From positions 1 through 64,000 of the IMG/VR virus record IMGVR_UViG_3300006923_003182: a DNA stretch of 64,000 nucleotides. One strand, given 5' to 3'. A program made the position numbers and the translations under genes. Shown in pieces: positions 15,358 through 41,514 of the stretch (positions within the stretch are counted from its first letter, which is position 1; each line of letters begins with the position of its first letter). The stretch comes from a virus. The notes beneath the pieces are model-generated. The model was given only the letters and a program-made list of their open reading frames with translations, was not told the DNA's origin and ran no database searches.

Positions 15358-15368
15358 TTTGTGCCAAC

Positions 15369-17107: not shown

Positions 17108-17659
17108 CTATTTTTCCAAAATAACACTACCCGCCGAAGGTAGGTCATACAGCCTAACCTCTCCGCCTTTTGCTCCAAGGCTCCCGAACCCCCCGCCGCC
17201 GGGCTCAAGGCCTCCATCCTCCTCCGGGCCCATAGCTCCGGTAACCGGTCTCCCCGATTTTATTATTTCTTGTATTTCCATAATTGTTTCGTGCATATCT
17301 TCGGAATAAAACGGCAACCTATAAGATCTTGGATCTGATAACTGCCGGCGTCGAAAAAACTCATAAGAATCATCCAACTCTCCATCGGCTTCGCTTATCC
17401 ATAAAAATATTGCCCCCGGCTCTCCAGACGCCTTATTTGGACTTCTTGCCAGGGCCCAGTGTATTAAAAATTTATCTGGCAACCCGACCTCGGCGGGCCA
17501 TCCGGCCAAGTTCTCTAAAGATCGGGCGATATTGAGCGAAAACAAGACCGTAGCCGTTATCGCAACAAGCTTAGCCCACCACCTACCGCTTGATCCGATA
17601 ACAAACCATAACAATATTGACGCAAGGACTATAAATATCAAAGAAACCTCTATCACCAT
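17108..17659 (-). CDS. Hypothetical membrane protein with glycine-rich C-terminus
   Basis: The 183-residue protein begins with two membrane segments (about 4-22 and 28-45). A globular region of about 80 residues follows ('SGEPGAIFLWISEADGELDD'). The tail has a flexible glycine-rich stretch ('GGLEPGGGGFGSLGAKGG', about 148-166) and ends with 'VRLYDLPSAGSVILEK'. Its start overlaps the ExbD-like gene by 7 nt, so it is likely the third part of that membrane cassette. I do not recognise a family; a partner of the ExbB/ExbD-like pair is the best inference. Confidence 0.6.
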   Translation of the reverse strand: MVIEVSLIFIVLASILLWFVIGSSGRWWAKLVAITATVLFSLNIARSLENLAGWPAEVGLPDKFLIHWALARSPNKASGEPGAIFLWISEADGELDDSYEFFRRRQLSDPRSYRLPFYSEDMHETIMEIQEIIKSGRPVTGAMGPEEDGGLEPGGGGFGSLGAKGGEVRLYDLPSAGSVILEK

Positions 17660-18240
17660 CCGATCCCTGTAAAATACTTTGGAATACTATTCGTCCCAAT
17701 TACCCGTCCTTCTCGATCCAATATAAACCTACAGGCAGTCTCTTCTTGCCCGCTGTACCTCATTAACAGGGTTCTTGAAGAAACTGTTCCAAATGGATTT
17801 ATTTTATCTATTGTAACCAGGACTGGAGTTTCTCCTTCGGTTCTTTTGATGTAAGCATGGATATTTACAACATATTCTCCCGGCATCATTCCCCTGATCA
17901 TAACGATCTCCCTGTTATCGCTATTATCTATTGATTCTGATATCGAGGAGGAGTAGGGATCAACTCCAAGGTCATCTCGATCTAAATGCATCATTCCCGC
18001 CTCCTGGTTTCTAAAGAACACAACATTGCCCTCTGGGTCTTCGACATAAATGTCTATATCATCGTTTCTGTCACCCGGCCATGATGCTGTGATTATAAAC
18101 TCGGCCCTCACGTCTATTTCGCTTGACTCTTTTTCTGGACTTACAATTAACAGCGCAATTGCGAATAGAGCAACAAAGCACAGAAGCGTATTAAATAAAA
18201 TATCAAGAAATGCCAAGTTTGAATGGTATGACCTTCCCAC
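17653..18240 (-). CDS. ExbD/MotB-like single-pass membrane protein with extracytoplasmic beta domain
   Basis: This 195-residue protein has a short cytoplasmic start, one membrane helix 'FLDILFNTLLCFVALFAIAL' (about 11-30) and a 160-residue external domain. The layout and the aspartate at the membrane entry (D13) match ExbD/TolR/MotB stators, where that residue carries protons. The external part ('WPGDRNDDIDIYVEDPEGNV', then 'GEYVVNIHAY') looks like a beta-sandwich, not the OmpA-like peptidoglycan-binding domain of MotB. The GTG start follows the ExbB-like gene's stop directly, after GAGG. Confidence 0.65.
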   Translation of the reverse strand: MGRSYHSNLAFLDILFNTLLCFVALFAIALLIVSPEKESSEIDVRAEFIITASWPGDRNDDIDIYVEDPEGNVVFFRNQEAGMMHLDRDDLGVDPYSSSISESIDNSDNREIVMIRGMMPGEYVVNIHAYIKRTEGETPVLVTIDKINPFGTVSSRTLLMRYSGQEETACRFILDREGRVIGTNSIPKYFTGIGW

Positions 18241-18699
18241 TTATTTCGCCTCAGAGTCGTCGATATTAAAGCATTGAACTTTTAACAGGGCACTGCTTAT
18301 GAGGCCAGTAAGAGTTGTATATAGCGCCGTTGACATTCCAACTCCTAGTTCTGTAATCAAATCCTGAATTGTACTTATATCTTCTATATTTATGCCAGCA
18401 AACCCACTAAGCATTTCTATAAAACCTATAACAGTTCCAATCATTCCTATTGTGAGAACCAGATCGCTCATAAACCATCCAAATTCTATATTCGGGGTCA
18501 GACCTCGATCGATCTGCCATGATTTATGCCCACACCACACGGACGTAACAATTAAAACGAGTAAGTTTACAAAGCTCAGCTTGGTAAAGTCACTATCCCA
18601 AAGAGCCTCTCCCAGGCCCATATAGAGTCCCTGGGTTATCGCCCCGAGCATGAGCGAAAAAAACAACCACCAGGTTAAAAATGTTTTATATTTATTCAC
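18241..18699 (-). CDS. MotA/TolQ/ExbB-like proton channel subunit
   Basis: A 152-residue membrane protein with four predicted helices (about 8-28, 43-60, 76-97, 113-140). The last two carry the family signature 'LTIGMIGTVIGFIEMLSG' and 'LGVGMSTALYTTLTGLISS'; in ExbB/TolQ/MotA these line the proton path. With the ExbD-like protein it could form a proton-driven motor in the inner membrane. The GTG start follows the TGA of the 1122-aa polyvalent gene with AGGGG upstream, so translation is coupled to an injected-type protein. It is shorter than ExbB (about 240 aa), lacking most of the cytoplasmic loop. Confidence 0.75.
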   Translation of the reverse strand: MNKYKTFLTWWLFFSLMLGAITQGLYMGLGEALWDSDFTKLSFVNLLVLIVTSVWCGHKSWQIDRGLTPNIEFGWFMSDLVLTIGMIGTVIGFIEMLSGFAGINIEDISTIQDLITELGVGMSTALYTTLTGLISSALLKVQCFNIDDSEAK

Positions 18700-21600
18700 T
18701 CAGCGCCCCTGCTTGGTAACGCTCGAAAGCCACCGGGCGCGAGCTGTCCGCCCATTAGGAGCAAGCCCACTATAGTCATCGATCTTATCCAGACCGAGCT
18801 CAAAAAAGTAGTAACCACCTTTTGCCTCTGCTAATCGACTGGCTGCAGAAATTGCGAAATCTGCATCACCGTATATTTCGTGTATTTTGCTATCAAAAAA
18901 TTCATAAGGAGAGGCCTTCGCCAGAGACTCCGCAGCCTCCATTGTCAAGTGTCCGTATTCATCCGATTCGTGAAATTTTAGATCAAAAAAGATTCGAGGG
19001 CCTAATTCTATCATCCCCTTCATGGCAATCGGTATTCTGTCTTTGTACTTATCTATTTTGTAAAGATCACTTCCAAAGAATACCCACGGAAAGCTCTCTA
19101 TTATCCTGTCTATTGCGACTTCCGCAAGAACCTCGTACCTTTCATCGGCTGCCGTATCGGGGCCCTCCTCGAAAAAGGCCCATGGGTATTTCCCTGTAGC
19201 CAAGGCCTCCGCTGCGGCGAGCCCAAATTCCGAATATTCCGCCATCATGTGAAGGTTGAGCTTAAAAAATTCATCTGGATTTTTTTCGGATAAAGCTTTC
19301 GCGGCGGGCAGGGCTGCTGCCGCGTATATATCACTTGGGCCCTGCTTATGTATTTCTAATTGAAAATAAGAATATGGACGTGACTCTACCATGCATTTTA
19401 CAAATTTCTTATTTAATACTTCAAATCTTGGGTCATTAAATCGGCCATTTAATAACTTTAAGTATTTTTCATAATCACTACATACATATCTCTTGGCCAT
19501 CCTGATGGCTATCGTGATAAACTCCTCGACGGTGTGTAGTCCGTTATCTGTAAAGTCAGAGAAGCTATCCGAGTTATTTTTCGCCAAGGTTGCATCAAGT
19601 GTGTGCATCGTGTTATTTGTCAGCAACTCTTTTAGATTAACATTGGTCGCGTACTCTCCTAAGGCCTTAATTGCTTGTCCTTTTTTGTAATAATCATTTT
19701 GATTCTCCATATTATATATCACGTATCTATCCAAAAAGACTCTTGCAGACTCCTTTAGCCCTTCATCATCAAATACTTCATTAGGAAGGTTTTCCATCAT
19801 ATCTTGAATCATATACCCATCTGGGACGCCAAAGCCTTCGATTCTCGCATCCGAATTAAAGGCGTCAATCCATACCTTCATCCGTTCCCGAATAAATTCT
19901 ATAGTTTTATATTTTTCAACCGGGAGAATCACCAACGCCCTCCATTCCAGATGGGATCCAAGAGATGTTTCTATTAGCATTTCTCGCAACTCCTCTGTTT
20001 CTAGCAAATCAAAGATCCCCAGAACCTCTTCTTCCGATATATGCTCGGAATGTAGGACGTATGAGCTCACAGCTTTCGAGATAAGCACATCTGGCAGGTG
20101 ATTGTCCTTATTCGCCCTCATAACCTTCTCAAATCCGTAACTTCGTTCGTCGATCATTATTGTTTCAATATTTTTAGCAAGAAACCTCAAAGCAATTGGG
20201 GATAGCGCAGACATCCCAAGTACGGAAAAGAAAACACTACTGAGATTGTACTCTTTACCTTTCTCTTCCATATTGCTCAAAACACCGTCGACCAAGTTAT
20301 GCTCCTCTCGACCGGCTAGGACTGCTATAACTTCATCCGGAGACCATAGGGCTCCGGAGTAATAATTATCCATTATCTTTTCAGTCTCGGCAATCATCCA
20401 ATAATCGTCTGAATCTTCATAATCTATTGGAGCAAAATACTCATCCAGCCAATTACGAATATATGGTGCATACTTCTGTACCGGAGGGGCGTTTTCCTTT
20501 CCCTTTATTTGATGCACATTTCTGCCCGATGAGCCTCCCACCTCTATTGTCACGTGAGGCTCATTCTTGGCGTCTCTTAGAGAATAGATCTTAAGGCGCC
20601 CAATGATGATGTCATCGCAATAGCCCCCAACGCAGTGCCCCATGTTGCGACCCTCGGTTTCGACATCCTCGGGCGGGACAAGAACCATCGTGTATCCGTC
20701 CCCAAAATCATGATGAACATTTTTTGTATTATATTCGCCAACTTCAATAGCCGGAACAAACTGCTCGTGCCACTTTTCGGCAGCCTGGATCATGGTCTGC
20801 GCGGAAATACTCTGCCATGGGCCCATTCCCGGCTCAGGGAACGCATCCAGAGAGTTCACATAATCCTTAATTTGAATTAAAACCAGCCGTGGCGATGCCG
20901 CTTCATTCATATTAATGTTCGCCAGCCACTTAATAAATGGCTTTCTATTCTTATGGGGCAACAGGTCATCACCGACGAGGGCAATGGCATTTAATGCCGA
21001 TCTATTAAAAATTGGTCCATCCTCTGCCCTCTCGGAAAGGCTCTCAAAATAAGATCGAGGATCTTGCTCCGGGCTCTTTGCGATCTGCTTTTGCAATGAC
21101 TTTATATTAATCTTTTTTAGATACTCCTTATCTGCCTGTGCGGCAACCTTGTGCAGCTTTTCTATCTGGCCCATCCGGCCTCTTTCGCTTTCGCAAGCTC
21201 TAATTATTGATATATCTTTTGCCTCTTTCTTGAAGCCATTACTCCGAAGCCATTTCGACAGCCTATCTAGAGCATAATCAGGCTCATCTGGCCACTCATC
21301 CGGATCGAACTCAGACCACTGCTCATTTAGCGAAATATATTTAGATGGTATGTGACCATTGATAATTATTGTATCGTGATCAACTCCGTCATTAGCCGCC
21401 TCAGAATCAGAATACTCCACCCCCAGAGCCCAGGCTATGGAGTTTATCATTTTTTCTCTATAAATAGCCGGCTCCATCTCTATAACAGGGAGCTCTTCAT
21501 TCTTTTGCTCATAATCTTTGCGCATCGCGCTTAAATCTATTTCAAATATATAGTCGCCATAAGAGTCAATTGCTTCTGGATTGAAGCTTGCGAAAATAGC

Positions 21601-22068
21601 ACTTCCAACCCAGCGATTTGAAAGCCCCCTCGTCTTGCTCATTGGAGATAGCCCTTCTCGCATAATTGATTTAACATTCTCTCCTGGAGTTGCGTGATAG
21701 GCTATTCCGGCAAAGTAATCCTCCTGATAATTCTCCTCGTCAACGTAGTCTTCTGGGGAAATGTTATAAATCCAATGATTCGCGTCTTCGGAGCCGCTTA
21801 TATTTTCACCGTCCATGTCAGCAACATGTTTGTCGCCCCGCCAGCCAAATGCATAAATTTTACTCAGGCCCTCTTTTTCGTTCGTAAGATCTATAACTTC
21901 CGTGGATCCACCGTCCTTATTTATAAGCTCAGAAAACCTACTCCAATTAAGCGCCTCATACCCCCCTATCACGTCCTCAAGGATCCCGAGCTCTTCCTCG
22001 GTCAAGCCTTCTGGTTTCATGGCAGCTTTAAATAGACTTTTAACTCTTAATCGCCTAAAGCTTCTCAT
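18700..22068 (-). CDS. Polyvalent protein: ART-like + PcfJ-like units + alpha-solenoid repeats
   Basis: The 1122-residue protein begins with the basic tag 'RSFRRLRVKSLFKAA'. Residues about 122-245 resemble an ADP-ribosyltransferase-fold domain ('AYHATPGENVKSIMREGLSP'). A second tag 'MGQIEKLHKVAA' (299-310) begins the next unit. Residues about 455-515 match PcfJ-like proteins ('RNMGHCVGGYCDDIIIGR', 'IYSLRDAKNEPHVTIEV'). The last 230 residues carry six or seven repeats of about 31 residues with 'FF.L.LH....Y....AAE.LA' spacing. Such combinations occur in phage and plasmid 'polyvalent proteins' thought to enter the host with DNA. Substrates are unknown. The next upstream gene overlaps by 4 nt. 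Confidence 0.75.
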   Translation of the reverse strand: MRSFRRLRVKSLFKAAMKPEGLTEEELGILEDVIGGYEALNWSRFSELINKDGGSTEVIDLTNEKEGLSKIYAFGWRGDKHVADMDGENISGSEDANHWIYNISPEDYVDEENYQEDYFAGIAYHATPGENVKSIMREGLSPMSKTRGLSNRWVGSAIFASFNPEAIDSYGDYIFEIDLSAMRKDYEQKNEELPVIEMEPAIYREKMINSIAWALGVEYSDSEAANDGVDHDTIIINGHIPSKYISLNEQWSEFDPDEWPDEPDYALDRLSKWLRSNGFKKEAKDISIIRACESERGRMGQIEKLHKVAAQADKEYLKKINIKSLQKQIAKSPEQDPRSYFESLSERAEDGPIFNRSALNAIALVGDDLLPHKNRKPFIKWLANINMNEAASPRLVLIQIKDYVNSLDAFPEPGMGPWQSISAQTMIQAAEKWHEQFVPAIEVGEYNTKNVHHDFGDGYTMVLVPPEDVETEGRNMGHCVGGYCDDIIIGRLKIYSLRDAKNEPHVTIEVGGSSGRNVHQIKGKENAPPVQKYAPYIRNWLDEYFAPIDYEDSDDYWMIAETEKIMDNYYSGALWSPDEVIAVLAGREEHNLVDGVLSNMEEKGKEYNLSSVFFSVLGMSALSPIALRFLAKNIETIMIDERSYGFEKVMRANKDNHLPDVLISKAVSSYVLHSEHISEEEVLGIFDLLETEELREMLIETSLGSHLEWRALVILPVEKYKTIEFIRERMKVWIDAFNSDARIEGFGVPDGYMIQDMMENLPNEVFDDEGLKESARVFLDRYVIYNMENQNDYYKKGQAIKALGEYATNVNLKELLTNNTMHTLDATLAKNNSDSFSDFTDNGLHTVEEFITIAIRMAKRYVCSDYEKYLKLLNGRFNDPRFEVLNKKFVKCMVESRPYSYFQLEIHKQGPSDIYAAAALPAAKALSEKNPDEFFKLNLHMMAEYSEFGLAAAEALATGKYPWAFFEEGPDTAADERYEVLAEVAIDRIIESFPWVFFGSDLYKIDKYKDRIPIAMKGMIELGPRIFFDLKFHESDEYGHLTMEAAESLAKASPYEFFDSKIHEIYGDADFAISAASRLAEAKGGYYFFELGLDKIDDYSGLAPNGRTARARWLSSVTKQGR
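21139..21174 (-). other. Internal LHKIA-type tag in the 1122-aa protein
   Basis: Encodes MGQIEKLHKVAA (residues 299-310), between the ART-like unit and the PcfJ-like unit. It matches the N-terminal sequences of neighbouring polyvalent proteins. Confidence 0.6.
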
Positions 22069-22505
22069 TGCCCCCTCCAGTACATTATCAGGGCAGGTAC
22101 ATGCGTCATTCCAAGCTCTATGGCCGCTGCGAGTCGATGACGACCACTAACGAGCTTATAGCTTCTATTTCCCCATGAACTTTTCCATAATGTTACCGGA
22201 GGAAGCGGAACCCCACTCATCATTTTATCTTTCAGCTCATTCGTCCAGATCCTTCCATATTCTTCTTGTTTTTTTGCCAAATTTATTGGAGCATTATAAT
22301 CAAACTCTTCGACCGAGATAATTTCAATTCCGTCGCCAAACAAATCCTCCTTCCTATCTTCGGGCCCCAAAAACTGCTGCACTTCCCCCTGGGCATCATG
22401 CATTTCCCTGTCTACAGATGAGTGGTCAGCTTCCCATGTGACTCGCTCTACGGCTTCGGCGATCTTAAGGAATCTTTTTAATTGCATTTTTCTGCAGCCC
22501 TTCAT
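22065..22505 (-). CDS. Small polyvalent-type protein with ParB/Srx-like domain
   Basis: This 146-residue protein starts with the tag 'MKGCRKMQLKRFLKIAEAV', like its neighbours. The C-terminal 60 residues hold a ParB/sulfiredoxin-like motif: 'GVPLPPVTLWKS' then 'SYKLVSGRHRLAAAIELGMT', where G-R-H-R is the nucleotide-phosphate loop of the ParB-N family. Such domains bind or hydrolyse nucleotides or act as nucleases. It overlaps both neighbours by 4 nt. Confidence 0.75.
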   Translation of the reverse strand: MKGCRKMQLKRFLKIAEAVERVTWEADHSSVDREMHDAQGEVQQFLGPEDRKEDLFGDGIEIISVEEFDYNAPINLAKKQEEYGRIWTNELKDKMMSGVPLPPVTLWKSSWGNRSYKLVSGRHRLAAAIELGMTHVPALIMYWRGQ

Positions 22506-24979
22506 TCCAAGACATCCTTATATCCAGCGACCCATGAATCATCCTGCTCTATGTTTTGCATTTGATTTTTAGAAATCATTATCCAAATATACTTCTCTCC
22601 GGCATTGATTGCCGCAAAGGCCCTATGATTCCCATCTCGAATTTGGAATGTAAATTTGCCCAGATCTCCCCCTCCAGACTCCTCTGCTTTTTTCAACTGC
22701 AATTCTAACTCATCTTTGAGCTCGTTATATGAGCTTTTGATTATCTCATATTCGTCATCATATTCTGCATTGTTATTTAAGTATTCTTCTTTATCCTTCA
22801 AATATTCATCTAGATCTTCATCTCCAGTTGTTAATGGCGCATGGCCGTAATCTTCCTGGTACTGTATCGACTCTTCAACCTCGCTGAGTCCGACTTTTGA
22901 CATCTCGCCATATGGCGCGTAAAGAATCACCTTTTCTGGAGATGAATTTATCTTGTCGGCCAATTGAGAAATCTTCTCATCGTAAAATACATTCCCTTGG
23001 ATTGGATAAACATAATGAGAATCCGCCCTTACCATCTTTCCGGAGTCTCCAATCCAAATTACATTTTGCCCATGATATAGATTGTCAAATTCTGTTTCGC
23101 GCTCGATCTCATCTGAATCTAAATCTGGATAAAAATCTTCACGGTATTCCGCATATTGATCCGGCTGGCGCCAAAGCGGACCTTCGTCGCGGGGGACTGC
23201 GAGCTTGAGCAGCTGATTTAATGTTTTTAATTCTGCATATCTTTTCGAATATGCCGTAGCGGCAGTTTCCCCCACGCCCGATCCAACAAGCAGTTCGAGA
23301 ATCATATCGCTGCGGTCTGGATTATCCCTCCTGAGCTCGCTATAAAAGTCAACCATTTTAGTGACCTTCTCGGGGGGTACATTATTTATCTTCGCTACCA
23401 TATTTGTGAATTCTTCGTCCGAATAATTTGGCTTAGACAGATCGTAACCCACATCCGAAAGCCTCCTCTCAGATCCATATGGCTGATCTTTCCGGGGAAC
23501 AACTTTCAGGCCTAATTTTAGAAATTCTTCTCGCGAATACCAAACCGGATCCTTGCCATACTCTTTGTGTCTTATTCTCTTTATTTGCCTCGGAGAAACA
23601 AGGCCTCTCAATAATGCTTGAGGCTCGCCTCCCTGGGTCCAGGTTAGAGACAGATGTGGCCTAAAGCTATCTGGAAACTTTTTACCTGCCATCTCGGATC
23701 TGGCTTTCACTTCGGCGTTATGCCAATCGACAGAATGGGCATGCGGATCGCTTTTTCTTCCTATATTCCCAGAATAATCAACTCCATGAAGAAATTTGGC
23801 CCTTACATCAATCTCTAGAATTATCTGCCCATAGCTTGCAAACTTATCCGCCGCCTCTTCGGTTGGGGCCACGAAAATACCCGCGTGTCTCGGGCCGCTA
23901 TAAAGCCTTGGCATAATCTTATTTGCGTCAAATCCATTAATCATTTCGTAGCAATCCGCCAGGGTTGTGCCATGGAAAACTGTTATGATATCATTTGGAC
24001 GAACATTGTTGACATCCATTTCTTCTGATATTTTAAAAATTTGACCCAAACGAACCTTCCTGGAAGACTCTTTGTCGCCCAAAGACTCGACCATATAAGA
24101 GTGAAGGCCTCGGCGATCTTCTTTATCTTCCATTTTTTGCCGCGCATATTCTGATTTATACCTCCTGTCGAAGGGGCTCTCCTCGAACCCCTCTTCGACT
24201 CGGCTTAGCATATCGGAATGAGTGGACCTTCCCATGGATGAGTCCGGCCTATAGTCTACAAAGGAAACAAACCTTCTTCCTTCTAATTGGTTATTTCTAA
24301 CAAAGGTGTCGATTATTGCCGACAACGCGTTGATCGAAGAATCATAAGACTCTCCGCCAAATGGCAGTTTATAGCTTTTATCGTACTTCTCCTTCCACTT
24401 TTTCGCCGTCATTCCGGTCCGCAAATAATCATCTTTAAATAATCCCGGATTGTCATAGGCCGGGAAGTCATTCCACATATCCTCCGGCACAACTCCGAGC
24501 GGCTCACTTACCGTGACGAAAAATACAGAATCATCCAGTTCACCGGATTCGACCTGTTTTCTTATTTTATTATATGCCTTATAATATTCGCTAGTATTGC
24601 AGCGACCATGGCCCCAAGGCTTTGTTGACGCGCATGGAACCAGGGCGATTGTCTTGTATTCTTCGGGGATTTTATAGTTTCGCATTTTTTCATGCCACTC
24701 TATAATTTCCGGCTGAGATAGAAGCCCAACGGTTTCTCCGGGAGTATATGCAACAAGATCTGGGTTTAATCTGAAATCTTTATCGCCATAACCTTTGGTT
24801 TTTTTATCCAAAAGATGTTGGCGTAATTCTGGCCAATTCTCCTCAGATATGTATGGCTTTTTTCCTTCATTATCCGAGCCCAATTGGGCTCTTTCAAATT
24901 CTGATAGCTCAATTTTTGGGCGATCGGCAGAAGACTGCTTAAAGAGTCTTTTTAGATGTAATTTTCTAAAACTTTTCAT
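22502..24979 (-). CDS. Polyvalent protein: DUF5591-like + ART-like + ParB-like units
   Basis: An 825-residue three-unit protein. Tag 1 is residues 1-16 ('MKSFRKLHLKRLFKQS'). Residues 109-240 resemble DUF5591, the domain found in archaeosine synthases: 'IALVPCASTKPWGHGR' and 'VTVSEPLGVVPEDMWNDFPA'. Tag 2 (307-319, 'RKVRLGQIFKISE') precedes an ADP-ribosyltransferase-like unit (331-480; 'ITVFHGTTLADCYEMI', 'HAGIFVAPTEEAADKFASYG'). Tag 3 (584-595, 'LKTLNQLLKLAV') precedes a unit ending in a ParB-like 'FQIRDGNHRAFAAINAGEKY'. It probably works as several effectors made as one chain. Catalytic activity is not proven; classic R-S-E residues are not obvious. Confidence 0.7.
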   Translation of the reverse strand: MKSFRKLHLKRLFKQSSADRPKIELSEFERAQLGSDNEGKKPYISEENWPELRQHLLDKKTKGYGDKDFRLNPDLVAYTPGETVGLLSQPEIIEWHEKMRNYKIPEEYKTIALVPCASTKPWGHGRCNTSEYYKAYNKIRKQVESGELDDSVFFVTVSEPLGVVPEDMWNDFPAYDNPGLFKDDYLRTGMTAKKWKEKYDKSYKLPFGGESYDSSINALSAIIDTFVRNNQLEGRRFVSFVDYRPDSSMGRSTHSDMLSRVEEGFEESPFDRRYKSEYARQKMEDKEDRRGLHSYMVESLGDKESSRKVRLGQIFKISEEMDVNNVRPNDIITVFHGTTLADCYEMINGFDANKIMPRLYSGPRHAGIFVAPTEEAADKFASYGQIILEIDVRAKFLHGVDYSGNIGRKSDPHAHSVDWHNAEVKARSEMAGKKFPDSFRPHLSLTWTQGGEPQALLRGLVSPRQIKRIRHKEYGKDPVWYSREEFLKLGLKVVPRKDQPYGSERRLSDVGYDLSKPNYSDEEFTNMVAKINNVPPEKVTKMVDFYSELRRDNPDRSDMILELLVGSGVGETAATAYSKRYAELKTLNQLLKLAVPRDEGPLWRQPDQYAEYREDFYPDLDSDEIERETEFDNLYHGQNVIWIGDSGKMVRADSHYVYPIQGNVFYDEKISQLADKINSSPEKVILYAPYGEMSKVGLSEVEESIQYQEDYGHAPLTTGDEDLDEYLKDKEEYLNNNAEYDDEYEIIKSSYNELKDELELQLKKAEESGGGDLGKFTFQIRDGNHRAFAAINAGEKYIWIMISKNQMQNIEQDDSWVAGYKDVLE
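23195..23230 (-). other. Internal LHKIA-type tag 3 in the 825-aa protein
   Basis: Encodes LKTLNQLLKLAV (residues 584-595), at the start of the C-terminal unit with the ParB-like motif. It matches the phi-x-K-phi-A core with L instead of H. Confidence 0.5.
24023..24061 (-). other. Internal LHKIA-type tag 2 in the 825-aa protein
   Basis: Encodes RKVRLGQIFKISE (residues 307-319), just before the ART-like unit. The core is I-F-K-I-S, a degenerate form of the motif. Confidence 0.5.
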
Positions 24980-25335
24980 TGTTTCTCAATCTTAATTACC
25001 ATTACATTATTAGGATCGAATATTACCCAATTTCCATCCAAATAAATGGAATCAAACCCTTGCTCTTGAATTTGCTGCAGGTAAAGCTTGTCATATTCGC
25101 CCCATCCGGCGGTTCTGCCAACTGATAGTTCGACTTCCATTATATATTTTGATGATATAGCCCCAGATTCACCATTTAATATTTTATCTTTATCTTCGTG
25201 GAACCACATAACGCCCTGAGCTCCCATGCTGGGATCGAAAACATGAATAGGAACATTGCTACCATGATAGGCAGTAACTACTTCCTTGTCGGCTGCGATT
25301 TTATGCAAACTTGTTATTTTGCTAAAACGATTCAC
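24976..25335 (-). CDS. Single-unit ART-like polyvalent protein
   Basis: A 119-residue protein with GTG start, AGG upstream, and the tag 'MNRFSKITSLHKIA'. The rest is a minimal ADP-ribosyltransferase-fold unit: 'VTAYHGSNVPIHVFDPSMGA', 'GVMWFHEDK', 'YIMEVELSVGR', and a C-terminal 'GFDSIYLDGNWVIFDPNNVM'. This Y-H-G-S ... F-DP layout is typical of ART domains in phage polyvalent proteins. It is the simplest example of one tag plus one cargo. It overlaps the 825-aa gene by 4 nt. Confidence 0.75.
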   Translation of the reverse strand: MNRFSKITSLHKIAADKEVVTAYHGSNVPIHVFDPSMGAQGVMWFHEDKDKILNGESGAISSKYIMEVELSVGRTAGWGEYDKLYLQQIQEQGFDSIYLDGNWVIFDPNNVMVIKIEKQ

Positions 25336-25384
25336 TTTAACCTAGTCCTTACGCTTGAAGAGCATTGATTATCAATAGAAATTT
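25336..25384 (-). promoter_or_regulatory. Gap upstream of the polyvalent block with a partial copy of the conserved element
   Basis: The minus strand reads CTATTGATAATCAATGCTCTTCAAGCGTAAGG (25378-25348), sharing CTATT.ATA.TCAA and TTCAAGCGTA with the elements at 10709-10723 and 32002-32014. It lies before the 119-aa ART gene and could start transcription of the 25.3-17 kb block. Confidence 0.35.
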
Positions 25385-27208
25385 TCACTCAACGGAAACG
25401 GATTTTGCCAAATTACGAGGCATATCGACCGAACAGCCCCTCTCTATTGCCAAATAGTACGAAAATAATTGACATGGAACCAAAAACATCAGTGGATTCA
25501 AAACTTTATTCGAGCAAGTTGGAATTTCAATGTAGTCATCAACAATATTTCGTAGCTCATCAGAGCATTTATCTTCGAATATCCCGATCACCGTTCCTTT
25601 CCTTGCCTTTATCTCTCTAATATTTGAAATCATTTTCTCCTCAGATGCATCAGCGGAAACCAGCGCTAATGTTGGCATTTCTTCCGAAATCAAGGCCAGA
25701 GGCCCGTGCTTCAACTCAGCAGCGGAGTATCCTTCGGCGTGAATATAGCTTATTTCTTTTATTTTCAATGCAGCCTCTTTTGCGACCACTTCTAATGGCC
25801 CTCGGCCGATCGTTAGCATGTTATTATATTTTGCATATTTTTTGGCCAACACCTTGAGTTTGTCGGCAGACTCAAGCGCTCCAAGCATAGCGCCCGGAAG
25901 ACTTTTAAACTCAGACAGCAAAGACTCGTAACTTAGTCGAGCAAAATCTCTTTTTGCCCCGATCATTGCAGCCATAGCTAGCATCGCTGTTATTTGGTTC
26001 ATAACAGCCTTGGTCGATGCCACAGACACCTCTTTTCCTGCACGAATATATATTCCTGCGTCGACCATCTTTGAAATTGTAGAATTTGGAACATTTACAA
26101 TTCCAACATTTAATGCCCCATGGTTCTTAAATGCCTTTATGCATCCAATTGTATCCGCTGTTTCTCCGGACTGAGAAACTGACACCAAAACCGTTCCGCC
26201 CGTAACAACTGCGTTGTAATATTTCAATTCACCGGCAGGAATCGCTCTGGTTCTTATTCTTGCGATTGTTTCCATCGCCATCGCTCCGATTTGCGCAGCA
26301 TAAAATGCCGATCCGCATCCGGTAAATATTATCTCTTCTGCTTCTAGCAGATTATTAACAACAGAATCAATCCCGCCAATTCTAATTTCGTCATCGCAAA
26401 CTCTCCCCGTAATAGCCGTCCTCAAGTAGTCCGGCTGTTCGAATATTTCTTTTTCCAAAAAATGAGCATAATCACCCAAATGATATTGTGACTCTACAAG
26501 TTCTACTTTTTCAAACTTCGCGTCTACTCCCGCCCCGTCTAAAGCGTGCATCTTTACCGCCCCACCTCGGGCGATTATCGCCAAACGGTTGTCTGCCATT
26601 GTAACTACATTATCTGCACCGGACGGCAGAGATCCGAAATCAGAGGATATAAATATATTATCATCCGAATCCTTAGCGATGCAGGCGGGGGAGCCTAGTC
26701 TGGCGACAAAAAGCCTATCCTTATGATCCAAATGTGTGAATACCATTGCATATGCTCCACGTATCGATCTAAGGGCGGCAATTATGGCATCTTTTATATC
26801 TAAATTTGCAGAATAAAACTGAATTAAGTTTGGAACTATTTCGCTATCCGTATCCGAGGCAAACTTAAACCCCTCCTTTTCGAGGAAGCTCTTTAGCTCG
26901 GCATAATTTTCAATAATTCCATTATGTACCAAGGCAATTTTTTTATCATTTGAAAAATGAGGATGAGAATTAACTATACTTGGGACTCCGTGTGTTGCCC
27001 ATCTATTATGCCCGAATGATAATCCAAATGATTCGGCCTCTTCGGCTAATAGCTCCGGGTGACCTACGCACTTTTCGATCAAAAACTCACTATTTACTAC
27101 CGAGACGATTCCAGCGGAATCATATCCGCGGTAAGCAAGCCGCTCCAGCCCCGATCTCACTATGTCATATGAATTTTCATCTCCAATATATCCAAATATT
27201 CCACACAT
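25385..27208 (-). CDS. glmS: Glutamine-fructose-6-phosphate aminotransferase
   Basis: A full-length 607-residue GlmS making glucosamine-6-phosphate from Fru-6-P and glutamine. The N-terminal class-II amidotransferase begins 'MCGIFGYIGD' with Cys2 as nucleophile, followed by 'LAYRGYDSAGI' and 'GHNRWATHG'. Two SIS domains follow: 'FTGCGSAFYAAQIGA', 'SQSGETADTIG', 'GRGPLEVVAKEAALKIKEIS', 'AELKHGPLALI', ending '...MPRNLAKSVSVE' as usual. GGAGG lies before the ATG. It supplies the amino sugar for the UDP-GlcNAc-based pathway in the 33-49 kb operon; GlmM and GlmU would come from the host. Confidence 0.95.
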   Translation of the reverse strand: MCGIFGYIGDENSYDIVRSGLERLAYRGYDSAGIVSVVNSEFLIEKCVGHPELLAEEAESFGLSFGHNRWATHGVPSIVNSHPHFSNDKKIALVHNGIIENYAELKSFLEKEGFKFASDTDSEIVPNLIQFYSANLDIKDAIIAALRSIRGAYAMVFTHLDHKDRLFVARLGSPACIAKDSDDNIFISSDFGSLPSGADNVVTMADNRLAIIARGGAVKMHALDGAGVDAKFEKVELVESQYHLGDYAHFLEKEIFEQPDYLRTAITGRVCDDEIRIGGIDSVVNNLLEAEEIIFTGCGSAFYAAQIGAMAMETIARIRTRAIPAGELKYYNAVVTGGTVLVSVSQSGETADTIGCIKAFKNHGALNVGIVNVPNSTISKMVDAGIYIRAGKEVSVASTKAVMNQITAMLAMAAMIGAKRDFARLSYESLLSEFKSLPGAMLGALESADKLKVLAKKYAKYNNMLTIGRGPLEVVAKEAALKIKEISYIHAEGYSAAELKHGPLALISEEMPTLALVSADASEEKMISNIREIKARKGTVIGIFEDKCSDELRNIVDDYIEIPTCSNKVLNPLMFLVPCQLFSYYLAIERGCSVDMPRNLAKSVSVE

Positions 27209-27282
27209 GCTTTTTCCCTCCGGGTTTCGTAATATCCCTTTAAATTAATAGCTAATTTTTAAATATATTGCGGAGGCTAAAA
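27209..27282. promoter_or_regulatory. Divergent intergenic region between glmS and the LOG gene
   Basis: This 74-nt AT-rich gap separates two divergent genes, so it should hold promoters in both directions. Both genes have clear ribosome sites (GGAGG on each strand). I cannot pick convincing -35/-10 pairs; AT runs such as TTTAAATATATT are near the plus-strand gene. Confidence 0.4.
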
Positions 27283-28041
27283 ATGAAACCAGTTAAATGC
27301 TATGACGATCTAGACTACATTCGAGGAAAGGACGCTAGACATATTCGGATACTACTAGAGCACGAACAGGTCAAAACGAGATTGAAGGACAACAATGTGG
27401 AAAATACAGTTGTAATTTTCGGGTCAGCAAGGACGCTTCCGCCATTAGACTTGACGTCAAAAGCTGAAGATGCTCATTTTGCAAAAGATAAAGAATTTAA
27501 AAAACAACTTTCCCAGTCGAGGTACTACGAAGAGTGCATGAAGTTGTCTGGAGACCTGATTGGGTGGTCTGATAAAAACAAGACAAATATGCATATATGC
27601 TCGGGAGGCGGCCCTGGAATTATGGAGGCCGCCAATAAGGGTGCATTTTTGGCCAATCCAAATAAAAGTATCGGATATGGAATATCCCTCCCATTTGAGG
27701 CAGAAAATAACGAATACATCACAGAAAATTTAAGCTTCGAGTTTCATTACTTCTTTATTCGCAAATTTTGGCTCACATATCATGCAAGAGCCGTTGTGGC
27801 CATGCCCGGTGGATTTGGAACTATGGACGAAATATTCGAGATTCTAACACTAGTACAGTGCCAGAAAATGCCAAAAGTTCCAATAGTCCTATATGGTAAA
27901 GATTATTGGAATTCTATTTTGAACCTTCAGGCATTTGCGGACCACGGAGTGATCTCGGAAGAAGATCTGAATTTATTTAAAATATGCGACACCCCGGAAG
28001 AGGCTCTGGAGTACTTGACGAAAAGCATGGAGCTGACGTAA
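27283..28041 (+). CDS. LOG-family (Rossmann) phosphoribohydrolase-like protein
   Basis: The only plus-strand gene. The ATG at 27283 follows GGAGG by 6 nt, giving 252 residues; a longer frame from a TTG at 27268 would start upstream of that site. The family motifs 'SGGGPGIMEAANKGA' and 'MPGGFGTMDEIFEI' are intact. LOG proteins cleave nucleotide 5'-monophosphates at the N-glycosidic bond (cytokinin activation in plants; nucleotide salvage or unknown roles in bacteria). The wider family also includes pyrimidine/purine nucleosidases. Its orientation and isolation suggest a separately acquired unit. It ends 4 nt from the convergent gene at 28046. Confidence 0.85.
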   Translation: MKPVKCYDDLDYIRGKDARHIRILLEHEQVKTRLKDNNVENTVVIFGSARTLPPLDLTSKAEDAHFAKDKEFKKQLSQSRYYEECMKLSGDLIGWSDKNKTNMHICSGGGPGIMEAANKGAFLANPNKSIGYGISLPFEAENNEYITENLSFEFHYFFIRKFWLTYHARAVVAMPGGFGTMDEIFEILTLVQCQKMPKVPIVLYGKDYWNSILNLQAFADHGVISEEDLNLFKICDTPEEALEYLTKSMELT

Positions 28042-28045
28042 ATAT

Positions 28046-28408
28046 TTACTCTCCCTCTTTCGTCTCCGGAAGTTTATTATCCTTGGTGCCGTCAATATTG
28101 TATGTTATTTGCTCTCCATCTTCAAAGGTAATAATGGTGCCATTTATTAAATGCGAAGTAATATGAATGCTTACGAAGTCGTTCATTGAGTCGAATACCG
28201 CGATCGATCCGCGAGGTGAGGGCGAGAGCCAGTGAAGCATTACCTGTCCTGTTGCCAATAACGCCCCCTCGACTATGACTCCCGTTCCTGATATCCCCGT
28301 TTCGTCATTTTGGCGGCAGACCGTAAAGGTTCTTATGCCCCTAGGAGCAAGTCTCGCTGGAGGGCGCGGCTTCAGATCCTCGTCCTCTGCTTTTTTCTCA
28401 TCTTCCAT
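28046..28408 (-). CDS. Hypothetical 120-aa small conserved-type protein
   Basis: The N-terminus is charged and proline-rich. The core 'RTFTVCRQNDETGISGTGVI', then 'ATGQVMLHWLSPSPRGSIAV', resembles a small family I recall from actinobacterial phages and hosts with 'D.TG.SGTGVVAEG...W' patterns, function unknown. It starts right after the TAA of the 59-aa gene, with AGAGG 5 nt upstream. The recall is by pattern only. Confidence 0.55.
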   Translation of the reverse strand: MEDEKKAEDEDLKPRPPARLAPRGIRTFTVCRQNDETGISGTGVIVEGALLATGQVMLHWLSPSPRGSIAVFDSMNDFVSIHITSHLINGTIITFEDGEQITYNIDGTKDNKLPETKEGE

Positions 28409-28588
28409 TTAGGCCTCTGCCGCAGGAGACATGCTGTGTACCGCAAGGGTCTCTATCGCATCCTCTTCTGCTGCCTTTATTTCATCCATCATTTCCCAAA
28501 CGCTAGCGTTTTCGTCCATAAGTCTTTCGTTTTCTTTTTCTAGTTCTTTTATCTTGGCGTACGGCCTAAATATGTCTCTAAATTTCAT
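28409..28588 (-). CDS. Small 59-aa coiled-coil protein
   Basis: Translated here from an ATG at 28588 that overlaps the TGA of the 1128-aa gene (ATGA). The product starts MKFRDIFRPYAKIKELEKEN and is mostly one charged helix with heptad-like leucines, ending HSMSPAAEA. The next gene starts directly after its TAA. The coupling on both sides supports a real gene. No family is recognised. Confidence 0.6.
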   Translation of the reverse strand: MKFRDIFRPYAKIKELEKENERLMDENASVWEMMDEIKAAEEDAIETLAVHSMSPAAEA

Positions 28589-31500
28589 GATTCGCCCCTT
28601 GTGTGTTGTTGCTCTAAAGGAATGTTTTTTATATCATTTGTCGTTATATGCTTTAAATTTAACGACCCAGAAGAAAGTCTCTCCCAAGCTCCCTGTGCAT
28701 GGATATTCATTAATACATAATAAAGATAATTAGAATCTAGCACGCTTTTTGCCGCCGGCCTTACGGCAACTCCTATGTGCTGCGGCTCGAAAGACTTGAC
28801 CACTGACCCCACTGACTCTTTCGATCCCTTCCTTATTATCCAAAAATCTGCATCTTCAAAGTTTGTTTTAATCTCGCAGAAACCTCCGAGCTTGAGCGGG
28901 CTGGCAAGCTTATGGAGCTTTGCAATTTTATAAGATCTTCCATCCTCAATTATATTTTCGTTAGGAAAAGCTCCCCACTCAAACTTCTCCTCATCATCGC
29001 CGACTGGACTATAAAGATCGTTGTAATCTCCAGAGGATACCATGGCATCAAAGGTTCTATCTCCATCTAAATATGCTTGAAAAATTCTATGATTGCCATC
29101 TTCAACAATAAGTTGCTCGTGTTTGGTGTCCCAAAATAATTCCGGGAGCCCTTCCGTCATCGATGGCCTTCCGAGGCGAAGATGCCTCAAAGTCGAATCG
29201 CCCTGACCCTTAGACATAGTGATTTTTTCAAAAGGAATGCCCCTAACCAGGGTGTATCCGCTTTCGCTATCTTCTATTTCTCCAAGCAGATCCTCCGAGA
29301 ATGAGAAGGGCATTTTTGAGAATGGAAGCTCCAATTGACGGCCGCTCTGCTTGCGAGCCTCGTTGTCATCGGCCAAATCCTCATCTTCCTCATATTCTAT
29401 CTCTTCGAACTGTCCGTATCCTAATTCGTTTTTTGTCTCAAAGTATATTGAGGCCTCTTCCGGCGTTGCCTCGTAATAATCTGACAGCCCCTTGTAGCTC
29501 ATTTCATCGTTCCGATAAATATCGCTAGCGTTCGCCAGAATATAATATGAATCAATAAATTTTGCCGGGATTCTGCCGCGATATCCATATACGCCCATCT
29601 CCCTAGACACCGCCATCGCCGTGCCCGGCATTGCCTCACCTTGGGTGCCGGAGCTGCGAGTTTTGTTGGAAATATAGTCATAAACATTGGTCTGTTCCGA
29701 CTTGTTATTTATATCATAATCCGGAACAAGTTTGGCCTCATCCTGCAGAGAAAACTCAACGATCATGGGGTCGTCGCCAACCTTATCTGCTGTATGTACC
29801 GCGTGCGCTCGAGCTTCATCAAATCTGGATGTAAAAAATATTAAATCAGAATGGGCAATATCTTTATAATTCGTCTCTGACACTCCCGGCCGAAGTCCCG
29901 TCTTTAAAATATCTCCCAAATACTTGGTTGACGTACCGTGAAACATGGTCTTTGCAACTCTCCCGCGTATTTCGTGCTTTGATGCTTCAAACTCATCATC
30001 TCCGCCGTAATAAACAACGTTGTTTAGCCCTAGCTCTTTGAATACTTTTTTCACTAAGATTGAAGACTTCGGGTCCAGGGAAAACCCCCCTCTTCTTTGC
30101 AAGTGAAGATCAGAGCGTGGAGGGTTGGTCCAGGGGGCGTCATGGATCGACCCAACAAGAACGTCAGAGCGCCCCTCATCGTCGATTGCCGTGTATAGAT
30201 CCTCTAAGATCTCCCAGTCTTTATACTTCATCCCTATTTCGGTATTTATTTCATCTATAATGTCATCAGGTATGGGCTCATCATCATCTTCGAATCTCCA
30301 TATTTTGGAGCCAAACGCAACAATCGAAGATCCGCTGCCGTAGATATGCATAGCAATTTTATGTAAGCTTGCAATCTTGTCCATTCTAGCGCTGATATCA
30401 AAGTGAGCTAGAGCCAATAGAACCCCCGGATGAACATCAAGACTCGAAACCTCGTCTAAATCGACAATCTTCCAATCTGTATGCTCCCAGTTTAGCGTCG
30501 GGCTTATCGAGCCCATTACGTCCGCAGTAACTTCCAGCAGAAACGTCGTAAAAGTAAAGCTGCCATCTTTAAAAACATAATTATCTACAAACCTTCCAGA
30601 TGGTATGCCTCCGATCTCCTCTTCGGCCTCATGGATTGCAGATTCTTTCGGATCCCTCCCGCCCCCGTTAGAGTCCCTCGGAATGGCCCCTCCAGAAATG
30701 CCCCACAATCCCGGGTTCTCAACGTATGGTGAGCGCTTGAGTAATAATATTCTTTCGCCGTCCGTTATCATTATGCCCGAGGCTGCTGAGCCCCAGTACT
30801 TCCCGACAAAGCCTTCGTCCCGGTAGTCCGTGGCTACTTTATTTAATTTCGCGATCTTTCTTTGACGCTTGGACATCTCCTCGTCATATCCATCGGACTG
30901 GCCAATTACCTCTCCGCCTGGAAGCACCGCCCTCCAGGTGCTGCCCACGGTCTTCTCGTGCTCAGCTATATAATCGACATAATCATTTCCACCATAATGA
31001 AATGTTAATTCATAATTTGGATACCCAGAATCCTCTACCACATATAGTATTCTGTTCTTTCCCGAGAATCCAATTGGCATCATTGAGCGAAGATTTTGAT
31101 GACGCCAATCGTTATCACTTTTTATATTTATAAGCTCTGGAGCGGCGGCGCTTAGGGCATCGACCGAGACTCTTAGCTTTTCCCATGAGCCCTTAAAGGC
31201 ATTATTTCTAGTGGTTTCGATTAAGTCTTCATAATCTTGAATCTTATCTTCGACCCCCTCTACCATTTGGTTGTTGCGCCTTATGATTCCTTCAATTATT
31301 TTATTATAACGTTTAATGTTCTCATCTTTATAACGATGAGCCTCGACCTCCATGAGGTGATTCGCATAAGAAATGAAGACATCTTTGAATAAACCATAGA
31401 ATCGCTCTCTCTGTCTTTTTATCCTATTCTTAAATCCAGGATGGTTTTCGATTAAAATATTTCCTAGGTCGTCTATCTTATCCGAATAGTCCCAAAGTCT

Positions 31501-31971
31501 AATTTCATCATATATCTTATTGTAAAAATCTGGATTAAGATTTCCCGAGTATCCCCAGCCACTTCTAGCGCCGTGGAAGACAAGGCTGCCCTCAAACGTG
31601 CGAAAGAATTGGTCAGCAGAAGACCCAATAATCCTGGATATATTCGGCAGTACAAAATCTTCGTCAACCATAGCATCTGGGCTGCGAGTTTCATAAGTTA
31701 TGCCAATCATTAATTTATTATCTCCGCGGGTCGTGGCGGTGCTCGATGCGGAAGATGCGGATCCAAAATTATCGGTCATATAGACGCCACCATGAGTCTT
31801 TATGGAGCTTGTGCCGGCCCCGCGTCCAAACTCATCGTTATAAACGGGGGGCTTATTTGGCAATAATCCTTCTTTTAGGATCCCCCTTAAATTATTTGAG
31901 GTTGTTCCGTGCCAAAATAGCTTTCTTTCGGCAATCTTGTGCAGCCTCGATATTTGCCCCGAGCGATTCAC
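28585..31971 (-). CDS. Four-unit polyvalent protein: ART-like, NUDIX, ART/ParB-like, HsdS-like
   Basis: 1128 residues from a GTG (GGAG 7 nt upstream). Unit 1: tag 'SGQISRLHKIA' (4-14) and ART-like 'KLFWHGTTSNNLRGILKEGL' (17-36). Unit 2: tag 'QRKIAKLNKVA' (370-380) and a NUDIX hydrolase (about 385-525) with 'GLWGISGGAI' and 'ESAIHEAEEEIGG' (443-455). Unit 3: tag 'MDKIASLHKIA' (530-540), a second ART-like domain 'TMFHGTSTKYLGDILKTGL' (675-693), and a ParB-like 'VEDGNHRIFQAYLDGDRTF' (956-974). Unit 4: tag 'SYKIAKLHKLA' (1013-1023) and a short region like an HsdS recognition domain ('SSGSLNLKHITTNDIKNIPL'). The NUDIX box arginine is replaced by H447. Each tag lies exactly at a unit start. Confidence 0.75.
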   Translation of the reverse strand: MNRSGQISRLHKIAERKLFWHGTTSNNLRGILKEGLLPNKPPVYNDEFGRGAGTSSIKTHGGVYMTDNFGSASSASSTATTRGDNKLMIGITYETRSPDAMVDEDFVLPNISRIIGSSADQFFRTFEGSLVFHGARSGWGYSGNLNPDFYNKIYDEIRLWDYSDKIDDLGNILIENHPGFKNRIKRQRERFYGLFKDVFISYANHLMEVEAHRYKDENIKRYNKIIEGIIRRNNQMVEGVEDKIQDYEDLIETTRNNAFKGSWEKLRVSVDALSAAAPELINIKSDNDWRHQNLRSMMPIGFSGKNRILYVVEDSGYPNYELTFHYGGNDYVDYIAEHEKTVGSTWRAVLPGGEVIGQSDGYDEEMSKRQRKIAKLNKVATDYRDEGFVGKYWGSAASGIMITDGERILLLKRSPYVENPGLWGISGGAIPRDSNGGGRDPKESAIHEAEEEIGGIPSGRFVDNYVFKDGSFTFTTFLLEVTADVMGSISPTLNWEHTDWKIVDLDEVSSLDVHPGVLLALAHFDISARMDKIASLHKIAMHIYGSGSSIVAFGSKIWRFEDDDEPIPDDIIDEINTEIGMKYKDWEILEDLYTAIDDEGRSDVLVGSIHDAPWTNPPRSDLHLQRRGGFSLDPKSSILVKKVFKELGLNNVVYYGGDDEFEASKHEIRGRVAKTMFHGTSTKYLGDILKTGLRPGVSETNYKDIAHSDLIFFTSRFDEARAHAVHTADKVGDDPMIVEFSLQDEAKLVPDYDINNKSEQTNVYDYISNKTRSSGTQGEAMPGTAMAVSREMGVYGYRGRIPAKFIDSYYILANASDIYRNDEMSYKGLSDYYEATPEEASIYFETKNELGYGQFEEIEYEEDEDLADDNEARKQSGRQLELPFSKMPFSFSEDLLGEIEDSESGYTLVRGIPFEKITMSKGQGDSTLRHLRLGRPSMTEGLPELFWDTKHEQLIVEDGNHRIFQAYLDGDRTFDAMVSSGDYNDLYSPVGDDEEKFEWGAFPNENIIEDGRSYKIAKLHKLASPLKLGGFCEIKTNFEDADFWIIRKGSKESVGSVVKSFEPQHIGVAVRPAAKSVLDSNYLYYVLMNIHAQGAWERLSSGSLNLKHITTNDIKNIPLEQQHTRGES
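28903..28938 (-). other. Internal LHKIA-type tag 4 in the 1128-aa protein
   Basis: Encodes RSYKIAKLHKLA (residues 1012-1023), at the start of the HsdS-like C-terminal unit. Confidence 0.6.
30349..30387 (-). other. Internal LHKIA-type tag 3 in the 1128-aa protein
   Basis: Encodes MDKIASLHKIA with flanks (residues 529-541), between the NUDIX unit and the second ART-like unit. The core is identical to the N-terminal tags of the 119-aa and 1128-aa proteins. Confidence 0.7.
30829..30867 (-). other. Internal LHKIA-type tag 2 in the 1128-aa protein
   Basis: Encodes RQRKIAKLNKVAT (residues 369-381), just before the NUDIX unit. An in-frame ATG (residue 366) precedes it, as at a gene start. Confidence 0.6.
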
Positions 31972-41510: not shown

Positions 41511-41514
41511 TTTG

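Follow-up and report, generated by a model that had tools for sequence, protein, structure and literature searches.

The tagged proteins

We analysed a 64,000-nucleotide stretch of DNA (hereafter the window) from a phage known from environmental DNA, positions 1-64,000 of the 72-kb IMG/VR record IMGVR_UViG_3300006923_003182, in which five proteins share a short basic tag typified by the sequence LHKIA. All five are encoded on the minus strand: p18700 (1122 amino acids, aa), p22065 (146 aa), p22502 (825 aa), p24976 (119 aa) and p28585 (1128 aa). A preliminary description of the window had reported eleven copies of the tag, at the N-termini of the five proteins and at internal sites just before new enzyme-like units, and had proposed that the tag is a capsid-targeting signal or a processing site. 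All eleven copies were recovered in the same places and the same proteins (Table 1).

Positions 227980-291955 of a 316,664-bp IMG/VR jumbo-phage contig (G001) match the window at 99.96% identity. The head module of this contig, recognized by PHROG matches at ~34-61 kb, encodes a major capsid protein, an 1108-aa protein with a protease domain, a portal and a large terminase. When relatives were sought with the capsid protein, 255 stretches encoding one emerged, and the best 80 of 255 were kept; seven of the larger capsid relatives (G003-G008 and G010) formed the whole-contig comparison set. G002, from a second jumbo phage (IMGVR_UViG_3300025141_000016; 59.5% guanine plus cytosine, capsid protein 38.5% identical), was added because it shares cargo units with the window. 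With p28585 as the query, no match was found in 19 related records, which marks the protein as accessory, and comparison with relatives therefore proceeded one unit at a time; the p22502 and p18700 scans returned only the near-identical 316-kb contig.

The pattern used in the preliminary description fits 9 of the 11 copies, the N-terminal LKRFLKIA of p22065 and LKRLFKQS of p22502 being looser. In the five proteins it matches nine times, where shuffling gives 0.18, and in the other 53 open reading frames (ORFs) of the 72-kb record three times, where 2.1 are expected. A stricter form, [ILVMF]x[KRSTQ]L[HFNL]K[IVL][AS], occurs seven times in the five proteins and never in 300 shuffles, and the core L[HN]K[IVL]A occurs six times in the five proteins against none in the other 53 ORFs. 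The strict form is also absent from those ORFs. Every tag fits the shorter form [LMIF]xKx[AS], which matches 18 times in the five proteins where 6.6 are expected; the seven matches outside the tags are at about chance level, and one of them, MDKIA (aa 530 of p28585), lies next to a tag.

Where copies share a Leu, Ile, Val, Lys, Ala or Ser, they use the same codon in 59 of 174 comparisons (0.34), and codon usage predicts 0.34. The tags are thus not recent DNA copies of one another, and a protein motif that stays unchanged while the DNA diverges looks kept by selection. Conservation also reaches beyond the core, as VNRxxxIxxLHKIA in two proteins and MxxxRxxxxKxxxK in the other three. As in proteins with T4-type leaders, a short N-terminal leader stands directly before a functional unit in all five proteins, and likewise in their stand-alone homologs; the L/I-x-E site of T4 gp21 is missing, and all 11 copies end in Phi-x-K-x-[A/S], where Phi is hydrophobic.

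The same motif marks the head module

The head module was delimited from PHROG matches before any motif was named, and its proteins were then scanned blindly for the ordered residue pair, at a fixed spacing of one intervening residue (up to 400 pairs), with the most excess over shuffles. In G001, K-x-A came first (74 against 45.9), ahead of M-x-K and L-x-K; when the protein set was slightly altered, it came second, behind M-x-K. It ranked first in the head modules of G003, G004, G005, G006, G007 and G008 (z 3.7 to 6.4; G010, with three head homologs, was outside the scan) and in 14 proteins picked from gp11-gp28 of phage G (32 against 17.5), second in the head of G002 (91 against 59.1) and third in five Myrna proteins (27 against 15.4). 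Seven T4 head proteins served as a control and returned the gp21 site, with I-x-E first, L-x-E fifth and K-x-A twelfth. K-x-A ranked 370, 290, 103 and 336 in four further G001 regions, of which two are presumed, from their position and protein size, to be tail modules.

The fuller motif behaves in the same way. [LMIF]xKx[AS] occurs 61 times in the G001 head-protein homologs (19.6 expected), and in those of the seven other contigs the counts are 53 against 20.4, 69 against 19.0, 58 against 21.4, 55 against 19.1, 22 against 9.9, 61 against 18.9 and 9 against 2.5, which amounts to 2.2-3.6 times expectation across the eight contigs, a level reached in none of 200 shuffles each. The rest of the proteomes, tagged cargo included, stands at 1.0-1.3 times expectation. 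Written backwards, the motif occurs 15-30 times against 27-74 forward in seven genomes, being 1.8-4.6 times rarer. Around K-x-A in head proteins, with Lys at P3 and Ala at P1 of the predicted site, Leu, Met, Ile or Phe is favoured at P5 and Ser, Gln or Glu at P1'.

Its placement also resembles that of a leader border. In a 182-aa head-module protein, all six aligned orthologs have a variable N-terminus whose last residues form the motif (LKKES, MSKEA, LEKFA, LHKVA, IVKHS and FKKMA), and the conserved part follows immediately. Of 151 head-module proteins in seven genomes, 82 have the motif within their first 45 residues, as opposed to 187 of 1383 others. Two capsid-protein copies, MIKQA and IVKYA, are each conserved in 6 of 7 aligned genomes. 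Outside the head, the first 20 residues of proteins hold the motif in clear excess in G001 (39 against 12.9), G004, G005, G008 and G010. The tag's site thus matches the head-protein motif in enrichment and in position. A search beyond the window, which the preliminary description had proposed, ties the tag core to a head-module-specific motif of G001 and its relatives, and the motif extends further than that description saw, as a head-wide site and as a second leader with the same core.

This second leader type in G001 is a 30-residue hairpin such as MIKELIKLATHLDERGLVKEADYLDSIIKKA, in which the K-x-A core is repeated two or three times. The hairpin (MIKELIKLATHLDERGLVKEADYLDSIIKK) stands on 12 G001 N-termini, three of them weak, and also occurs inside proteins and at C-termini; its sites at 52, 113, 136, 144-161 and 195 kb lie outside the window, and it is found in G003, G004, G005 and G008 as well. 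A profile gave 33 matches with i-Evalue <1 in five of nine genomes, 15 of them in G001 and some of these weak, and no match on one set of shuffled proteins. Within the window, a hairpin at the tail of the first part of p18700 resembles the C-end of G005:62885 (phmmer i-E 0.014) and is by eye of this second type.

A candidate head protease

The preliminary description had suggested looking for a prohead protease gene, and a head maturation protease gene (phrog_18299) is present. All 24 aligned protease orthologs, of 30 usable, match phrog_18299, and the protease is 36% identical to gp19 of phage G and 31% identical to gp97 of Myrna. In G001 (39995-43321) the protease domain forms the front of the 1108-aa protein, about its first 260 residues, and is followed by a long low-complexity tail with many Phi-x-K-x-A/S sites, an arrangement that resembles a protease-scaffold fusion. 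Peptidase_S77 matched in neither of 2 records searched, and the control likewise gave no match.

As a separate observation, Myrna gp97 (1211 aa), which is annotated as a tape measure protein, starts with the same protease domain and is encoded two genes before the capsid gene.

Internal tags at unit borders

Of the five internal tags in p22502 and p28585, four are no more than 12 aa away from borders defined by homology, for which random placement gives a probability of 6e-5, a figure that is somewhat generous as the alignments partly include the tags themselves, and a count that leaves out the sixth internal tag, in p18700. The claim that internal copies stand just before a new unit holds for these four, and the remaining copies have no homolog for comparison; for the last unit of p28585 none was found.

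Several of these units exist in other settings. From aa 585 onwards, unit 3 of p22502 aligns over its full remaining length at 71% identity with a stand-alone, tagged 262-aa gene of G005, and the junction reads LLKLA then VPRDEGPLW in p22502 and VFKYS then MPRNEGPLW in G005. In L203, a homolog of this unit sits behind a different domain, giving a third architecture, with ILKEA then MPRPYGSLF. Unit 2 of p22502 aligns with G002 over aa 312-583, between both internal tags, and homology of the p28585 NUDIX unit with G002 begins at aa 378. Unit 3 of p28585, which follows an internal LHKIA with the sequence MHIYGSGSSIVAFGSK, is homologous from aa 525 onwards to the stand-alone protein KVP40.0290, beginning at the extreme N-terminus of the latter. 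That N-terminus, MKNLKSFMEELQSLNE, reads by eye as a T4-type leader that ends in an LxE site (LNE) at the place of the window's LHKIA, and the leader ends in LNE in both vibriophage homologs read, of 53 records with a match.

G002 has a tag of its own. RVAxR[YFWAH] is present there in 29 copies (0.56 expected), at N-termini, at C-termini and inside proteins, and the broader R[VI]AxR has 11 copies near N-termini, 4 near C-termini and 20 inside proteins. An exact RVAxR tag follows just after the G002 homolog of p22502 unit 2 (aa 580, unit end 565) and just after the NUDIX homolog (aa 444, unit end 437), and the variants ASRVTARYL and ASAVRVVARF stand just before two G002 homologs of p22502 unit 2.

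Interpretation and alternatives

These observations point to the LHKIA tag being a phage-head leader that ends in a cutting site. The sequence hydrophobic-x-Lys-x-Ala/Ser would be the recognition site of the head maturation protease, with a hydrophobic residue at P5, Lys at P3 and Ala or Ser at P1, a prediction that follows from the enrichment of the motif, its position and the T4 control. Tagged proteins would be gathered into the prohead together with the core, where the head protease would cut after the Ala or Ser both at N-termini and at internal tags. The longer proteins would then be trains of units, at least two of which are separate genes with their own leaders elsewhere, and single enzymes (ART, NUDIX, PcfJ-like and ParB-like) would be freed by cutting and leave the head with the DNA at infection. 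We give this reading, in which the proteins are loaded, cut and delivered as separate enzymes, a probability of roughly 0.7. A more general form of it, that the phage G-like head lineage loads effector polyproteins by repeated leaders, cuts them with its head protease and refits moving units with tags proper to each lineage (LHKIA, RVAxR in G002, T4-type LxE in KVP40), we regard as having slightly better than even odds.

A number of observations count against this interpretation. The capsid protein of phage G is cut 27 residues in, which leaves 255 of 282 (PMC5646251 Table 1; this and the other papers cited by PMC number are drawn on in excerpts), and the cut is placed by computation between VALA and Q, where Ala at P1 and Gln at P1' agree with the predicted site and Ala rather than Lys stands at P3. 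The excerpts of PMC7150772 name no cut site for Myrna, and searches for virion data on phage E3, Tunturi and KVP40 yielded nothing further of use; across our literature search, neither virion nor cleavage data turned up for a close relative. In Pfam the protease domain has no match, the hits elsewhere or confined to individual members being at chance level, and none below E 0.4 came from the PDB; the predicted structure of the domain is poor, with a mean predicted local distance difference test score of 47.6. About 185 kb separate the cargo genes from the head genes on G001. Seven SPN3US proteins reported to be cleaved, for which the site is A-x-E, placed that pair only at rank 48 over whole proteins and rank 4 over the first 160 residues, a weak signal which indicates that the pair scan is not always sensitive.

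Further counter-evidence lies in the distribution of the motif. Outside the head [LMIF]xKx[AS] is mildly raised in several genomes, and above all 40 shuffles in some; the excess in the first 20 residues of non-head proteins is absent or slight in three of eight contigs (18 against 15.2 in G003, 11 against 9.1 in G006, 8 against 7.3 in G007). The VFKYS of G005 has Val at P5, outside the class counted. No tag separates aa 541-1015 of p28585, and copies of the motif occur inside units (LLKRS in the NUDIX domain, IIKSS in p22502), so the motif alone is insufficient for cutting and accessibility must matter. In G002, no exact tag precedes the NUDIX unit, with YGKTA at the position of the window's LNKVA, and a fourth, weaker homolog (89092-91305) has its tag 35 aa from the match. 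K-x-A is enriched in the G002 head module (76 against 47.4) even though the cargo tag there is RVA, R[VI]A is less enriched (15 against 6.5) and [LMIF]xKx[AS] shows no excess (12 against 12.8), so that the match between head and cargo motifs is looser in that genome. The proposal of a capsid-targeting or processing signal is upheld in part: the match to the head-module motif, the lineage-specific leaders and the internal copies at borders support it strongly if indirectly, and the single published cut that was found, in phage G as a distant relative, agrees with it at P1 and disagrees at P3.

The main rival is targeting without internal cutting, in which the tag would be an amphipathic docking signal for the head core, the internal copies would be relics of fusion and the trains would be delivered whole. 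It would suit the reach of conservation upstream of the K-x-A core, the presence of the hairpin leader at C-ends and inside proteins, and the example of polyvalent proteins such as the N4 virion RNA polymerase, which are packaged uncut (PMC5512222). Yet the internal copies keep the K-x-A core despite random synonymous codons and so appear to be kept by selection, not left as relics; borders between leader and mature part in a head protein are marked by the same core; and sites run along the long tail of the protease protein, which docking of cargo would not explain. We consider this alternative unlikely.

Units might instead be released by internal translation starts or by a host or post-injection protease, the tag being a linker or a relic leader. 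A Met stands 3-7 residues upstream of three of the six internal tags, as it would at a gene start, and an AGAGG stretch lies four bases upstream of Met299 of p18700; the other two Met codons lack a well-spaced AGAGG-like stretch, and the remaining three internal tags have no Met in the 12 residues upstream. Embedded peptidases have been proposed to release polyvalent proteins (PMC5512222), but the five proteins matched no peptidase family in Pfam or PHROGs, and a head-wide motif is not what one would expect of a mere linker, which leaves release by such routes improbable. That the tags are an artefact, either chance repeats or duplicated DNA that carried a leader along, is less probable still: the motif is short and degenerate, but its strict form never arose in the shuffles, codon identity is at random expectation, and other phages have lineage-specific tags at these borders. 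Chance is contradicted by the shuffles and recent duplication by the codon comparison, and internal starts were judged unlikely from the survey of Met codons and AGAGG stretches.

Composition of the tagged proteins and other features

Among the unit names given in the preliminary description, NUDIX, PARP/ART and PcfJ are supported by Pfam, ParB-like has weak matches (Pfam 0.014, below the cut-off; PHROG 1.6e-4) and HsdS-like finds no support in Pfam or PHROGs. Like polyvalent proteins, p28585 combines unrelated effector domains in a single chain (PARP, NUDIX and phrog_11974), and so does p22502, for which the evidence is partly homology. Unit B of p18700 has repeat-like matches to G005:62885.

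Table 1. Tags, hairpin and units of the five tagged proteins (window coordinates; E values for family or homolog matches)
Feature	Coordinates	Strand	Match
ISRLHKIA, N-terminal tag of p28585 (GTG start)	31930..31953	-	
p28585 unit 1, PARP/ART-like	30856..31929	-	Pfam PARP E 4.4e-10, best stretch aa 14-52
IAKLNKVA, internal tag of p28585, aa 373-380, directly before NUDIX unit	30832..30855	-	
p28585 unit 2, NUDIX	30376..30831	-	Pfam NUDIX E 2.1e-8, aa 397-511
IASLHKIA, internal tag of p28585, aa 533-540, directly before phrog_11974/ART unit	30352..30375	-	
p28585 unit 3, phrog_11974, ART-like, KVP40.0290 homolog	29422..30351 (far end approximate)	-	phrog_11974 E 1.8e-36, aa 530-814
p28585 stretch aa ~851-1015, ParB-like by eye only, no tag separating it from unit 3	28927..29421	-	
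IAKLHKLA, internal tag of p28585, aa 1016-1023, before last unit	28903..28926	-	
p28585 last unit	28588..28902	-	no family match in Pfam or PHROGs
ITSLHKIA, N-terminal tag of p24976 (GTG start)	25294..25317	-	
p24976 part after tag, weakly ART-like	24979..25293	-	ART-PolyVal E 0.12, below cut-off
LKRLFKQS, N-terminal tag of p22502	24932..24955	-	
p22502 unit 1, DUF5591	24050..24931	-	Pfam DUF5591 E 6.4e-6, aa 93-175
LGQIFKIS, internal tag of p22502, aa 311-318, before unit 2	24026..24049	-	
p22502 unit 2, ART-like by eye	23222..24025	-	44% identity to G002:231505 over aa 312-583
LNQLLKLA, internal tag of p22502, aa 587-594, before unit 3	23198..23221	-	
p22502 unit 3, free-standing in G005	22505..23197	-	71% identity, E 2e-127
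LKRFLKIA, N-terminal tag of p22065	22458..22481	-	
p22065 part after tag, weakly ParB-like	22068..22457	-	
VKSLFKAA, N-terminal tag of p18700	22021..22044	-	
p18700 unit A, ART-like by eye (sequence reading only)	21166..22020	-	
p18700 tail hairpin LDRLSKWLRSNGFKKEAKDIS, aa ~264-290, just before internal tag	21199..21279	-	
IEKLHKVA, internal tag of p18700, aa 302-309, after Met299	21142..21165	-	
p18700 unit B, PcfJ-like, repetitive C-terminal part	18703..21141	-	Pfam PcfJ E 7.3e-9, aa 466-532

Directly downstream of p18700, the window encodes a MotA/TolQ/ExbB-like proton channel protein (18241-18699; Pfam 1.2e-8), which is followed by two ORFs that by eye are membrane-anchored (17108-18699 in all). 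By eye, three adjacent short ORFs at 15031-16017 resemble iron-sulfur cluster assembly proteins (IscA-, NifU- and IscU-like), and a single ORF at 8233-10656 combines glycosyltransferase group 1 and tubulin/FtsZ GTPase domains (Pfam 4e-12 and 2.7e-14; PhuZ PHROG 1.4e-4). Among the relatives, the portal of G003 (90249-94109) carries a large insertion that starts with Cys and is by eye intein-like, and the terminase ORFs of G003, G005 and G007 are unusually long.

Relation to known systems and significance

T4, phiKZ and SPN3US are known to have leaders that their head proteases cut (PMC9026906, PMC5694885, PMC10052503); the site of gp21 in T4 is L/I-x-E (PMC9026906). The tagged proteins resemble T4 internal proteins IPI-III and Alt in having a short N-terminal leader, a short site with fixed P3 and P1, and cargo that includes an ADP-ribosyltransferase (PMC9026906), and the KVP40 homolog of one unit has an apparent T4-type leader. 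They differ from the T4 case in the site, K-x-A/S with a hydrophobic P5, in the recurrence of the tag between units, and in a protease of the phage G/Myrna-type family. With PhiKZ and SPN3US (gp175/gp245, S/A-x-E) they share a jumbo-phage setting, P3-x-P1 sites, multi-site propeptides and ejected proteins (PMC10052503, PMC5694885, PMC9026906); P1 is Ala or Ser here rather than Glu, and the excerpts of those papers do not describe multi-enzyme trains cut between the enzymes.

ART and Nudix proteins have been proposed to be packaged in phage heads, some of them fused to head proteins (PMC9503650). In composition the tagged proteins are like the multi-domain polyvalent proteins described by Iyer and co-workers in 2017, in which several effector domains (ART, ParB-like and others) share one phage polypeptide that is proposed to be injected (PMC5512222). 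Whereas those proteins are proposed to be released by embedded peptidases or to travel whole (PMC5512222), the recurring tag here points to a head protease acting in trans. In searches confined to PMC papers and read in excerpts, we found no earlier account of effector trains whose units are separated by a recurring head-protease tag.

The protease protein, with its long many-site tail, also recalls the protease-scaffold fusions of herpesviruses. Herpesvirus assemblin has Ala at P1 and prefers Ser at P1', and both residues recur at the site described here. Unlike in assemblin, P3 is Lys, and protein-family searches, beyond which none was sought, found no family link.

The blind pair scan may offer a cheap prediction of head-protease specificity for uncultured phages, given that it recovers the site of T4, with a weak result on SPN3US. 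If the interpretation that we favour is correct, the phage head would act as a vessel that delivers effector polyproteins after protease cutting; such a strategy is elsewhere associated with the polyproteins of RNA viruses. The tag could then read out the injected proteome of a phage from its sequence alone. The site would be readable from any genome of a large and mostly uncultured group and would yield lists of likely injected proteins and of proteins used against bacterial immunity.

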